NCBI GenBank assembly: GCA_021325275.1
Contig: JAJPHL010000008.1
Span: forward strand, 1 to 51,914
Source: Terriglobia bacterium
Lineage (GTDB): Bacteria; Acidobacteriota; Terriglobia; JAJPHL01
Length of the DNA: 51,914 nt
Direction of reading: 5' to 3'
Below, piece by piece: positions 22,045-41,990 of this stretch. The position numbers and the translations under genes were made by a program. The notes beneath the pieces are model-generated. The model saw only the letters and a program-made list of their open reading frames with translations. It was not told the origin of the DNA and did not search any database. Every line of letters begins with the position of its first letter. Positions within the stretch are counted from its first letter, which is position 1.

Positions 22045-22062
22045 CCGCAAAGGGTGAAAATT

Positions 22063-22163
22063 TACCACGGAGCACACAGAGAACACGGAGCACACAGAGA
22101 AAAACCATAGCAAAGGTGTTGTCTTTCTCTGTGTGCTCTGTGTCCTCTGTGTGCTCTGTGGTA
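22063..22163. repeat. 101-bp palindrome between rhaI and rhaB
   Basis: Two 40-base arms (22063-22102 and 22124-22163) are inverted copies with 3 mismatches, separated by a 21-base loop. The left arm reads TACCACGGAGCACACAGAGA onward, repeating a CACAGAG theme. It begins 19 bases after the rhaI stop and ends 31 bases before the rhaB start. It would form a very stable hairpin in the operon mRNA and could partially terminate or stabilise rhaI mRNA. The arm sequence is related to the palindrome at 1383-1493 and to the ends of the carAB element. Confidence 0.85.
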
Positions 22164-22194
22164 GAGTTTCCCGTAGTTAGTGGCAACGTTTTCC

Positions 22195-33358: not shown

Positions 33359-33365
33359 AAAAATG

Positions 33366-33807
33366 AGCCACCGAGACACCGAGAACACCGAGAACGCAAC
33401 TACAAAACCAGGCGCTTGAAGCCGCCTTCCATCAGGACCGGAGAGTTGAAATTGAATAACAATCCCACCTCCATGCCGGTTACACGGAGATAGGCCAAAA
33501 CTTGTGCCACGAAGAGACTGTGCATGGATTCAGCGCTCTTGATCTCGATAATCACTTTCTCTTCGACCAGCAAATCGAGCCGGTATTCACCAACCGTCGC
33601 GCCCCTGTAAATCACAGGGTAGGTTCTTTGCCGCTCGAATCGTAACCCAGCCGCCTGGAGTTCGACGCACAAGGCGTTTTCATACGTTGCTTCCAAGAGT
33701 CCCGGACCAAGAGCACGATGAACATTGATCGCGCAACCGATGATCGCCCGCGTAAGGCCGTCTAACGGATGGCTAGGTTTCTCGGTGTTCTCGGCGTCTC
33801 GGTGGCT
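33366..33807. mobile_element. 442-bp inverted-repeat element carrying a GxxExxY gene, inserted between carA and carB
   Basis: 29-base terminal inverted repeats at 33366-33394 and 33779-33807 differ at one position; the outward half reads AGCCACCGAGACACCGAGAA on the left. The right end includes two bases of the carA stop codon, and the left end lies 8 bases before the carB start, so the element fills the whole carA-carB junction. Inside is a single gene reading along with the operon. No clear target-site duplication is visible. Two gene-less palindromes with related arms (1383-1493, 22063-22163) suggest an interspersed family. Mobility is inferred from structure; no transposase is present. Confidence 0.75.
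33400..33696 (-). CDS. GxxExxY protein, PD-(D/E)XK nuclease-like (PDDEXK_3)
   Basis: The visible core has [20 protein letters not shown] and VIIEIKSAE, giving D-x(n)-ExK as in PD-(D/E)XK nucleases, then [20 protein letters not shown] and the typical end FKRLVL. The coordinates use the only canonical start, TTG at 33696, but homologous sequence continues upstream: GLTRAIIGCAINVHRALGPG and the signature GLLEATY are in the same open frame, which stays open through the inverted repeat to 33810. There is no ATG or GTG there; an ATT at 33810-33808 overlaps the carA TAG by one base and has GGAGG 10 bases before it. Function is unknown; many genomes hold several copies. It may be translated by coupling or be a relic. 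Confidence 0.75.
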
Positions 33808-34912
33808 AATTCTTCTTTTCCTCCATCAGTCTCACAAACTCGTCGAACAAATACCTCGAGTCATGCGGCCCCGGCGCGGCCTCGGGATGATACTGCACCG
33901 AAAACATCGGCAGCGTCCGGTGGCGGAATCCCTCCAGCGTCTGATCGTTCAGATTCATGTGCGTGATCTGCACCTCGCTGTCCTTCAGCGAATCGGGGTC
34001 GACGGCGAATCCGTGATTGTGCGACGTGATTTCCACGCGGCCCGTCAGCAGATTCTTCACCGGATGGTTGGATCCGCGATGGCCGAACTTCAGTTTGTAG
34101 GTCTTCCCGCCGAGCGCGAGTCCCAGCACTTGCTGGCCGAGACAGATTCCGAACACGGGTACGCGTCCGAGCAATTTGCGGACGTTTCCGATTTGCGTGT
34201 GCAACGGCTCGGGATCGCCGGGACCATTCGAGAGAAACACGCCGTCCGGTTTCAGCGCGAGCACGTCTTCCGCCGAGGTCAGCGACGGCACCACCGTCAC
34301 GCGGCAACCCGCCGAAACCAAGCGGCGCAAGATATTCAGCTTGATTCCGTAATCGAACGCGACCACATGCTTGGTGATTTCGCTGGTGCGATCTTCGGCC
34401 GGTGCGGTCCAATCGTATTGCTTCGGCGTCGAGACGCGCGTGGCCAGATCGAGGCCCGCCATCGAGGGAATCGCGCGGGCTTTCTCAATGAGGGCCTCGG
34501 CGTTCGTCTCAATCGTGGAGATGACGCCGCGCATCACGCCGCGCTCGCGCAAGTGGCGAACGATGGATCGCGTGTCCAGTTCCGAGATCACCGGAATTTT
34601 ATTTTTCCCGAGGAATTGGTCGGCGTGTTCCGTGCTGCGCCAGTTGCTGGTGATCGCGGAGAACTCGCGCACCACCAACCCTTCGATGTACGGCCGCGCC
34701 GACTCGTTGTCTTCCGGCGTGGTTCCGTAATTTCCGATTTGCGGATTCGTCAGGATGACAATCTGGCCGGAGTACGAGGGATCGGTGAAGACTTCCTGGT
34801 ATCCGGTGATGGCGGTGTTAAAAACAACTTCTCCGGCACATTCGCCTTGCGCGCCGTGCCCCTTACCCGTGTAGACCTTTCCGTCTTCCAGTGCCAGAGT
34901 GGCCTGCATCAT
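33806..34912 (-). CDS. carA: Carbamoyl phosphate synthase small subunit (glutaminase)
   Basis: Hydrolyses glutamine and passes ammonia to CarB. 368 residues: the N-terminal domain (GECAGEVVFNTAITGYQEV) and a class I amidotransferase domain with nucleophile C257 in FGICLGQQ and the His/Glu pair in SVQYHPEA (H342, E344). Tandem ATGs follow GAGG directly; the second (34909) gives a better spacing and either is possible. The stop codon lies on the edge of the inserted element that separates it from carB. The 70-base gap to lepB contains no obvious terminator. Confidence 0.96.
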   Translation of the reverse strand: MMQATLALEDGKVYTGKGHGAQGECAGEVVFNTAITGYQEVFTDPSYSGQIVILTNPQIGNYGTTPEDNESARPYIEGLVVREFSAITSNWRSTEHADQFLGKNKIPVISELDTRSIVRHLRERGVMRGVISTIETNAEALIEKARAIPSMAGLDLATRVSTPKQYDWTAPAEDRTSEITKHVVAFDYGIKLNILRRLVSAGCRVTVVPSLTSAEDVLALKPDGVFLSNGPGDPEPLHTQIGNVRKLLGRVPVFGICLGQQVLGLALGGKTYKLKFGHRGSNHPVKNLLTGRVEITSHNHGFAVDPDSLKDSEVQITHMNLNDQTLEGFRHRTLPMFSVQYHPEAAPGPHDSRYLFDEFVRLMEEKKN

Positions 34913-35569: not shown

Positions 35570-35655
35570 GCTTCTTTCTAGGAATCTACCATAGGATCGG
35601 ACGCGTTCCAAGAGGCGCGGTTAGCAGGCGAGGTTCGCAGGAGGCGGAAGGGCGA

Positions 35656-35857
35656 AATCAAAAATGAAAAATCAAAAGGCAAAAGGCAAAAGGCAAAAGG
35701 CAAAAGGCAAAAGGCAAAAGGCAAAAGGCAAAAGGGACCGACCTGACGGCGACGTAGCCTGGGCCGGATCATCGGCCGGCCACCGGCGCGGCATCGCATC
35801 CATGGCCACGGGCCCTCACTTTTGCCTTTTGATTTTTGCCTTTTGATTTTTGATTTC
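35656..35857. repeat. Large palindrome with (GGCAAAA)n arm, copy 1; fills the lepB upstream gap
   Basis: The left arm (35656-35735) is ATCAAAA-rich sequence followed by about eight tandem copies of the heptamer GGCAAAA; the right arm (35819-35857) reads CTTTTGCCTTTTGATTTTTG onward and is its inverted counterpart. An 83-base GC-rich loop separates them. The gap 35570-35937 holds nothing else except the hairpin that follows. Frames through the repeat give KAKGKRQ or FCLLPFA repeats with no start context, so I do not call a gene. A second copy lies at 40557-40661. Confidence 0.85.
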
Positions 35858-39842: not shown

Positions 39843-40661
39843 TCAGAAATCCCCGGACGCCCCCCCGCCTCCGCTATCGCCACCGCCGAATCCTTCGAAC
39901 CCGCCTCCACCACCGCCGCTGCCGCCTCCGCCGCCACCTCCGCTCCAACCACCGCCGCCAAATCCTCCGCCGCCGCCCCAAAACCAAAATCCCGAGCGCG
40001 AGAGGAAAATCAAAATGATGATGATGAAGATGACGATCTGGATCCAACTAATGCTGGAGCTCGATCGGCCGCGCCGTTGCCCGGACACCGGCGGCGGCGC
40101 GTTCGCATCAATCGTGACGCCGCTTTTCTCCGCCACGCGCTGCGCCAGCAGCAGCACGCCGGCGTTGAGGCTCGCGCCCCAATGTCCCTGCGACAATTCC
40201 GGCTTCATCGCGCGCAACACGCTGCCGTCAAAGCCGTCGGGCAGGAGCGGCTCCAGGCCATAGCCGATTTCGAGGCGCGTCTTGCGATCCTGCACCACGA
40301 TCAGCATCAAAGCGCCTTTGTTGTCCTTGCGCCCGATTCCCCAGGCGCGATAGAGCGAGTTGGCGTAATCCTCAATCGGCTCGCCGTCGAGAGATTTGAT
40401 CGTGACGACGGTGACTTGCGCGGCGGTCTTGCGGTCGAGCTGGACGCACAAGGCTTCCAGTTGCTGCTTCGACGCGGCGTCGATCACGCCGGCAAAGTCG
40501 TTCACGTAGGCAGTTGCGTGGAGAGAGTTGATCGGCTCGGAGGAAAGAAAAACGGGCGGCAAAAGGCAAAAGGCAAAAGTCAAAAGGCAAAAGTATGGAT
40601 GTCGGGCTGCGCCCTCCGGCCTTTTGCCTTTTGCCTCTTGCCTTTTGCCTTTTGCCTTCAT
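39843..40661 (-). CDS. TPM-domain (YgcG-like) membrane protein with a repeat-derived signal peptide
   Basis: A 272-residue protein. The TPM domain runs from YVNDFAGVIDAASKQQLE through TAAQVTVVTIKSLDGEP, YRAWGIGRKDNKGALMLIVV and RLEIGYGLEPLLPDGF. A membrane helix (IVIFIIIILIFL) and a very glycine-rich tail of about 45 residues follow. The first ~40 residues, MKAKGKRQEAKGKR then YFCLLTFAFCLLPP, are encoded entirely by the palindrome at 40557-40661: a basic region followed by a hydrophobic region, i.e. a workable export signal. AGAGGG six bases before the ATG supports this start, 24 bases behind the TolC stop. The protein may act with LemA; the function of the family is not settled. Confidence 0.88.
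   Translation of the reverse strand: MKAKGKRQEAKGKRPEGAARHPYFCLLTFAFCLLPPVFLSSEPINSLHATAYVNDFAGVIDAASKQQLEALCVQLDRKTAAQVTVVTIKSLDGEPIEDYANSLYRAWGIGRKDNKGALMLIVVQDRKTRLEIGYGLEPLLPDGFDGSVLRAMKPELSQGHWGASLNAGVLLLAQRVAEKSGVTIDANAPPPVSGQRRGRSSSSISWIQIVIFIIIILIFLSRSGFWFWGGGGGFGGGGWSGGGGGGGSGGGGGGFEGFGGGDSGGGGASGDF
40557..40661. repeat. GGCAAAA-type palindrome, copy 2, inside the TPM gene
   Basis: The left arm 40557-40593 (GGCGGCAAAAGGCAAAAGGC onward) and right arm 40618-40659 (GGCCTTTTGCCTTTTGCCTC onward) are inverted copies around a 24-base loop. It shares its unit with the copy at 35656-35857. Here the repeat is translated as the N-terminus of the TPM protein and begins at its start codon. Confidence 0.88.
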
Positions 40662-40685
40662 TTTTTCCCTCTCATTTTTTCCTTC

Positions 40686-41990
40686 CTACTGCACTAACCG
40701 CGAAATCTCTCCCGTCGCCTTAAGCACCTGTAACTTCGCTTTGTCCCCGGCGAATCCCGAATCGAGCAGGGCATTCCACTTGCCGCTTTCCTCAAGCCGC
40801 GCCTGTTCAAGCTCCTTCGCCCCGGCGCGGCCTTCCTCGAATTGCGCCAGCGTCACCGACGTGTTCTGGCGCGCCAGTTCCAGCTCCAGCCGCGCGACTT
40901 CCTTGGATGCCGTGGCTTCGCGCGATTGTTGAAACGCCGTCCGCACGTCGAGCGCGATCCGCCGCTTGGCCGACTCCAGAGCAGCCTTGGCCACCGTGAT
41001 TTCGGCCGTGGCCTCGCCGACTCGCGCGGCAATCTTAGCATTGGCGAAGAGCGGAATCTTAATCGACGTGCCTAACTGGATGTTGTTCGGCGTGAGAGTG
41101 TTCAAACTGCTCGTGACGAAGCGCGTGGCCCGCGTCAAGTACGCGTAGTTGACGAGCAATTCCATCTGCGGATATTTCTGGCTTTCCTCGGCGCGCAAGC
41201 GCGCTTCCCTCGCTTGCAACTCGAAGTTGAGTTTTTTCAGCTCCGCGCTATTGTCCCACGCCCGCTGCACGGCGCGATTTTCTTCCTCCACCGAATCGAG
41301 CGCGGCATCCGCTTCGAGCGCCCCCAGCGGCTCGGGCGACGTCCGGAATCGGCGATCTTCGGGAAGCGATAACAGGCTTCTCAGGGTCGATTCGAGCAAC
41401 GTCACACGTCCTTGCATTTCCAAGATGTGTTGACGATTGCGCGCTACGTTGAGTTTCGCGCGCGTCCCTTCGCTCGGCAGCTCGCGCCCTTCTTTCACGC
41501 GCTCGAGCATGAGCGCTTCGAGCTTCGTCAAGCTGCCGGTCTCTTTCGACACCGCTTCGAGCTCGCTCGCCGTGTGGGCGAGATCGAGATACGCCGTCGA
41601 GACGCGCCAAATCAAATCGTCGCGCCGCACCGACGCGCCCGCCGAGACAGCTTGCGCGTTGGCGCGCATTTCCTCGACGGCGTGGCTGAGGGGCCGGTTG
41701 AGAATTTGCCCGATGACCACGGCATTGGCGATCGACGGCGGCTGTCCTTCGATCAACTGCGACGTGCCGCGCGTGTACGCCGCGCCCGATCCCAGATAGA
41801 ACGCCGGGATGAACGCCGAGCGCGCTTCGTTGATCGCCTGCTGCGCGGCGTCCTGCTGCGCTTGCATCACTTTCACCTCCGGGCTGGCGGCGAGCGCCAT
41901 CTCGACGGCTTGTTTCAGCGTCAGAGTTTCCGGTGGAGTATCGGGAGCACCGCTGGCGAGCAGAGTTAGAGAAAGAAGGAAATGGAACAT
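40686..41990 (-). CDS. TolC family outer-membrane efflux protein
   Basis: A 434-residue protein with a signal sequence (FHFLLSLTLLASG). ETLTLKQAVEMALAASPEVK is the classical N-terminal segment of the OEP family, and the two long helical repeats are evident, e.g. LIWRVSTAYLDLAHTASELE and RRIALDVRTAFQQSREA. Strand regions such as FYLGSGAAYTRG and MELLVNYAYLTRA are the beta-barrel parts. It is in one operon with the permease, TPR and membrane-fusion genes and should provide the outer-membrane channel. Confidence 0.93.
   Translation of the reverse strand: MFHFLLSLTLLASGAPDTPPETLTLKQAVEMALAASPEVKVMQAQQDAAQQAINEARSAFIPAFYLGSGAAYTRGTSQLIEGQPPSIANAVVIGQILNRPLSHAVEEMRANAQAVSAGASVRRDDLIWRVSTAYLDLAHTASELEAVSKETGSLTKLEALMLERVKEGRELPSEGTRAKLNVARNRQHILEMQGRVTLLESTLRSLLSLPEDRRFRTSPEPLGALEADAALDSVEEENRAVQRAWDNSAELKKLNFELQAREARLRAEESQKYPQMELLVNYAYLTRATRFVTSSLNTLTPNNIQLGTSIKIPLFANAKIAARVGEATAEITVAKAALESAKRRIALDVRTAFQQSREATASKEVARLELELARQNTSVTLAQFEEGRAGAKELEQARLEESGKWNALLDSGFAGDKAKLQVLKATGEISRLVQ

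Follow-up and report, generated by a model that had tools for sequence, protein, structure and literature searches.

In the window analysed here, a 51,914-nucleotide stretch of a Terriglobia bacterium genome (contig JAJPHL010000008.1, assembly GCA_021325275.1), the first codons of a gene for a TPM-domain protein lie within a palindromic repeat built of AAAAGGC heptamers. The reading we favour, with a probability of roughly 0.78, is that this hairpin element of about 100 bp inserted into the signal-peptide codons of a gene whose product was already exported, and that it now encodes the predicted n- and h-regions of the signal peptide, ahead of a c-region that looks native. The reading frame is open through the repeat, the repeat belongs to an interspersed family, TPM homologues lack it, and the same layout recurs in unrelated genes for exported proteins.

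A repeat-encoded N-terminus in the TPM gene

The TPM gene (39843–40661, minus strand) encodes 272 residues beginning MKAKGKRQEAKGKRPEGAARHPYFCLLTFAFCLLPPVFLSSEPINSLHATAYVNDFAG, and residues 53–173 match the Pfam family TPM_phosphatase (PF04536) with an E-value of 1.6e-34 and 119 bits, against a curated cut-off of 22.1. The whole element occupies 40558–40658 and its RNA has a predicted folding energy of -78.9 kcal/mol (z -7.8). On the plus strand it comprises a 36-nt arm of GGCAAAA units (40558–40593), a non-repeated centre of 25 nt (40594–40618; centres vary among copies) and a 40-nt arm of GCCTTTT units (40619–40658), and Tandem Repeats Finder gives both arms a period of 7 with 93% matches. 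Read from the minus strand, the second arm encodes the basic n-region KAKGKRQEAKGKR, the centre approximately PEGAARHP, and the first arm the h-region YFCLLTFAFCLL (residues 23–34, 40560–40595), so that the protein runs M, KAKGKRQEAKGKR, PEGAARHP, YFCLLTFAFCLL, PPVFLSSEPINSLH, ATAYVNDFAG. The heptamer pattern has six overlapping matches in the window, versus none in 100 dinucleotide shuffles.

A first-pass annotation of this DNA had attributed the ATG, the basic stretch and the hydrophobic stretch to the two arms, with native sequence beginning after them. The origin of the basic and hydrophobic stretches stands, but the ATG (40659–40661, minus strand) abuts the arm from just outside and PEGAARHP comes from the centre. 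Native sequence does resume at about PPVFLSSEPINSLH, but the cleavage region appears to belong to it, which leaves the repeat as the source of the n- and h-regions, not of a whole signal peptide. The segment covering the remainder of the c-region and the mature start, PPVFLSSEPINSLHATAY (40506–40559, minus strand), looks native: its remnant SSEPINSLHATAYVND can be aligned by eye with HAEPVSQLHPTDYVND of locus L073, and because of this resemblance the c-region is probably native. No native h-region is retained.

The repeat is absent from the N-termini of all 109 other TPM loci compared, which come from relatives and GTDB species. Ahead of the domain these homologues have unrelated residues, in most cases recognisable as a signal peptide directly preceding (T/S)GYVNDFAG. 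Since relatives already carry signal peptides, the element would have overwritten or invaded an existing one.

A true start downstream of the repeat, which would make the protein cytosolic, is very improbable. The codons that could serve it are GTGs inside the conserved YVNDFAGV; no start codon occurs between the repeat and the TPM domain, and the ATG at the element edge is the sole in-frame ATG or GTG upstream of the domain. Because the GTGs lie where they do, starting there would cut into the domain and delete its first conserved residues. The homologues are exported, and near its C-terminus the protein has a hydrophobic stretch, IVIFIIIILIFL, and then a Gly-rich tail. A putative Shine-Dalgarno sequence, GAGAGGG (40667–40673, minus strand), lies 5 nt before the ATG. 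The downstream start was rejected for want of an ATG before the domain. Both conditions that would have undone the first-pass proposal, homologues starting at a conserved internal ATG and a true start past the repeat, were checked, and neither refuted it.

By charge and hydrophobicity, the repeat-derived signal is inferred to work in Sec export. The n-region carries a net charge of +7 before the h-region, as expected of a basic Sec n-region, and the h-region has a KD12 of 2.37, inside the native-homologue range of 1.91–2.99.

Coding properties of the heptamer

The AAAAGGC heptamer is stop-free in all frames, and its strands read KRQKAKG and AFCLLPF. Because 7 is not a multiple of 3, all frames of a heptamer array translate to the same 7-residue peptide, and because the element is palindromic its orientation is irrelevant. 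The purine strand is rich in K/R and the pyrimidine strand in F/L/C/A, so any element whose centre is free of stops reads basic and then hydrophobic in whichever frame and orientation it is entered. The pairing of a K/R-rich arm with an inverted F/L-rich arm in one frame, noticed at first for the TPM gene, thus extends to three frames and both orientations. AAAAGGC is among just 8 of 2340 heptamer classes that pass two coding thresholds, a net positive charge of at least 0.4 per residue and a complement with a mean hydropathy of at least 2.0. The complete elements of this genome offer 138 frames, 73 of them open, and 61 of those 73 read basic then hydrophobic; the genes of this genome that carry the arrangement use all three entry phases (KAKGK..., EGKRQ..., ARQKA...).

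Recurrence at the starts of genes for exported proteins

We scanned the genome for coding frames running on from an element, with a start codon at or before that element. Besides the TPM gene, the scan returned genes for a caspase-like protein (L142), a GH116 protein (L153), an Rv2525c-like protein (L162), a LolA-like protein (L167b) and a pectinesterase (L170), together with L169, which has a single arm in the hydrophobic sense. The codon score did not pick up a porin-like gene (L167a), in which the start codon overlaps the stop of the gene before it. The arrangement is therefore found in at least seven genes of this genome beyond TPM (L142, L153, L162, L167a, L167b, L170 and L169). The LolA-like and porin-like genes adjoin in one operon (L167, 2343–4477, minus strand), each with an element at the signal-peptide position.

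Where homologues were compared, they point to replacement or invasion of an existing signal. In GH116, LolA-like and caspase-like homologues, ordinary signal peptides end at the same mature residue. The LolA homologue at L196 begins RHWN[M]SK, versus RHWN[M]NEAN here with the element five codons after the start; conservation of the RHWN[M] context indicates that the LolA-like gene has kept its native start. (The LolA query, part of which followed the motif expected of the family, was 96% identical to the genome sequence; the N-termini were found using residues taken from the genome itself.) The first-pass suggestion that such repeats create secreted proteins does not hold up for the families checked: conversion of a cytosolic protein into a secreted one was rejected for TPM, LolA-like, GH116 and caspase-like proteins because their homologues have signal peptides, and on these comparisons the repeat has taken the place of, or invaded, an export signal that was already there.

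About seven further genes for exported proteins carry elements or arms at their starts in G151, G593, G607 and G499, genomes from other Acidobacteriota families. They encode an OEP efflux lipoprotein (L221), an FG-GAP protein (L244), an fn3 lipoprotein (L248), a cytochrome c lipoprotein (L240), a solute-binding lipoprotein (L243), a DUF1302 protein (L247) and a multihaem cytochrome (L238); L217 in G171 is a weaker, single-arm case. The host proteins are unrelated, which makes these separate insertions. What holds of the first-pass description is that the basic and hydrophobic regions are written by the repeat in the TPM frame, a layout shared by at least seven other genes of this genome and about seven elsewhere.

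Genes that start after an element form a different set. In this genome they encode a T2SSE ATPase (L147), AccC (L155), TruB (L159), a histidine kinase (L160), an MFS protein (L163) and a permease (L167), the last five named by eye from sequence and all left out of the count above; in other genomes, genes named by eye as PriA (L235) and MurI (L263) also start after an element. One gene of this genome starting after an element is an exported exception. Among full palindromes, the product is exported for 6 of 6 elements inside open reading frames versus 1 of 7 with downstream starts (Fisher 0.005, a post hoc comparison; 4e-5 with the other genomes included). Two other loci stand apart. At L146 (2735–3631, minus strand), which the scan also returned, a MurQ-like SIS-domain cytosolic protein has a single basic arm, VKARGKRQKAKGK, as its N-terminus, and no other start codon occurs within 40 codons downstream. 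A reading frame at L158 was considered as a further case and rejected as an Arg-rich, wrong-frame translation belonging to no family.

These recurrences bear on two other accounts of the TPM gene. It is possible, if rather unlikely, that the N-terminus is an uncleaved signal anchor instead of a cleavable signal peptide, as its aromatic h-region and weak -3/-1 site would allow. Other cases argue for cleavage, because the repeat there joins good native sites, CLA|QD in L167b, LQA|QR in L170 and, in L247, ...FCLLPFAFCFLLFPAFAQ|EPTP (AFA|QE is also given for this protein), or runs directly into lipoboxes, LTAC in L243, SAAC in L240 and FAAC in L248. Less probable still, an intergenic hairpin or terminator resembling repetitive extragenic palindromic (REP) elements may have truncated the gene, making the in-frame fusion fortuitous and the gene silent or a young pseudogene. 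The strong hairpin at the 5' end, the preference of elements for sites just past stop codons and the loss of the native h-region would all fit such a history. Yet the reading frame and TPM domain are intact, a Shine-Dalgarno-like sequence and an ATG stand at the element edge, and more than 12 unrelated genes for exported proteins share the in-frame layout, a pattern not expected had dead genes been fused to elements by chance.

Several considerations weigh against insertion into, and reuse as, an export signal. The TPM homologues include no relative of the same genus or family, and the comparison with them is not a base-by-base one with an empty site. The recurrent cases were first recognised by eye, with exported status taken from family and homologues. 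Signal peptides were judged by charge, hydrophobicity and the -3/-1 rules. In the TPM protein itself the n-region is unusually long, at 22 residues, and the best -3/-1 candidate near the h-region, LSS|EP, is weaker than AxA; at the RNA level, the hairpin of -79 kcal/mol extends from the start codon and could prevent initiation or trigger termination.

The favoured reading suggests a route by which such insertions could survive. Elements preferentially lie just past stop codons, as REP elements do, and where the start of the next gene overlaps the stop or follows it closely, an element would fall in that gene's first codons. Where that gene's product is exported, the insertion could persist as a substitute signal peptide, since signal-peptide codons would be the most forgiving stretch of such a gene, only charge and hydrophobicity mattering there. 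In a gene for a cytosolic protein, survival would be limited to elements that lie ahead of the start codon or consist of just the basic half. More speculatively, and with less than even odds in our estimate, heptamer hairpins might act as portable signal-peptide cassettes, independent of frame and orientation, which renew export signals again and again as they spread in Acidobacteriota, and whose readability as signal peptides helps them persist beside as well as within genes.

The element family and its relation to known systems

Pattern searches and retrieved stretches were used to survey the genome (6.86 Mb, 75 contigs). The pattern GGCAAAAGGCAAAAGG has 145 matches, which group into about 40 elements or half-elements, and the reversed control has none. 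Typical copies start with AAGGCAAAAGGCAAAAGGCAAAAGTCAAAAGGCAAAAG, continue through a centre of about 15–100 nt that differs per copy, and close with the inverted arm. Contigs C7, C12, C42, C47, C56 and C75 of the source assembly (G000) end within long heptamer arrays, so copy number is probably underestimated. Arrays often run on into arrays of TCAAAAA units, which read KIKNQKS (L141, L144, L154, L156, L164 and 35654–35672 of the window), and this continuation suggests unit turnover. The outer-edge pattern occurs in only 9 of 349 sampled genomes of the class, the source included, with 1–3 copies in each of the others, and the palindrome in 5 of 347 genomes of a phylum sample, among them G607, G593, G356 and G499 from other families.

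With genes called by a simple codon-usage method trained on the source genome, 25 of 33 scored elements have an outer edge no more than 35 nt from a stop codon, versus 17% of random intergenic positions (P ~2e-13). At the TPM locus, the stop codon of an upstream TolC-type gene (40686–41990, minus strand; Pfam OEP, 7.5e-25) lies 27 nt from the element edge. A LemA gene lies near the TPM gene, and this neighbour is conserved in 88 of 110 homologous loci. A second heptamer element of the window (35673–35845) is intergenic and outside any open reading frame, according to the pattern and gene calls.

The window also holds a second palindromic family, with 9-nt units of the CACGGAGAA/CACAGAGAA type, beside gene ends and starts (22056–22170, 33359–33394 and 33779–33814; also L158, 3610–3763). 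One of its arms abuts the CarB start, and its inverted arm reads LCVLCVLC or FSVFSV. At L158 a heptamer element is nested with the 9-nt-unit repeat.

Like miniature inverted-repeat transposable elements (MITEs), the heptamer element has terminal inverted repeats, its arms beginning AAGGC and ending GCCTT; inspection of element flanks, with no empty site for comparison, gave no consistent target-site duplication. Like REP elements (PMC3733652), the copies are interspersed hairpins, mostly extragenic and near gene ends. Unlike REP elements, which are palindromes of 20–40 nt, they are longer, with heptamer arms of about 38 nt, their aligned edges show no fixed tetranucleotide such as the GTAG/CGTC tag, and no copy occurs in the roughly 3 kb retrieved around each of five Y1_Tnp transposase genes (G000:C24:136179, C70:307, C14:8776, C1:76165 and C40:70020). 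Mobilisation as a REP by a REP-associated tyrosine transposase was rejected because the Y1_Tnp genes, although present, are not flanked by the element in these loci of about 3 kb, and without either tag or Y1_Tnp association we do not call the element a REP.

The replacement and gain of bacterial signal peptides as whole units are poorly explained, and here many genes show a repeat caught in the act, its tolerance having a simple coding reason: purine-rich arrays give K/R, and their complements F/L, in every frame. The prediction extends to any genome with inverted purine-rich repeats of short period, and annotators should not trim such N-termini as artefacts. In Enterobacterales, signal peptides have come and gone as entire N-terminal segments were inserted or deleted, and ISEScan detected no transposable elements at such N-termini (PMC5952966); here, unlike in that survey, the repeat source is visible.

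Rickettsia palindromic elements (RPEs; Ogata et al. 2000), as PMC2229807 recounts them, are palindromes of 105–146 bp that have entered numerous protein genes in frame, including that for guanylate kinase, and the heptamer element is likewise a palindrome lying in frame in protein genes. The likeness is one of layout. RPE hosts, on the same account, include conserved cytosolic proteins, whereas full heptamer elements within open reading frames were seen only at the signal-peptide position. A text search of the literature for the repeat peptides found no paper. The closest precedent is the Yersinia repeat RU-2/YPAL, which contributes to the signal peptide predicted for YPO1552, a protein whose homologues in other genera have unrelated signal peptides (Delihas 2007, PMC2759123; PMC2229807), as the TPM homologues do here. 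RU-2/YPAL is a MITE-like unit of about 168 bp, known in this role from one main locus and one reading frame, whereas the heptamer arms read in all frames and both orientations and affect many genes. Against that single known precedent, what is new here is the type of element, the frame-independent basis of its coding and the many independent instances.
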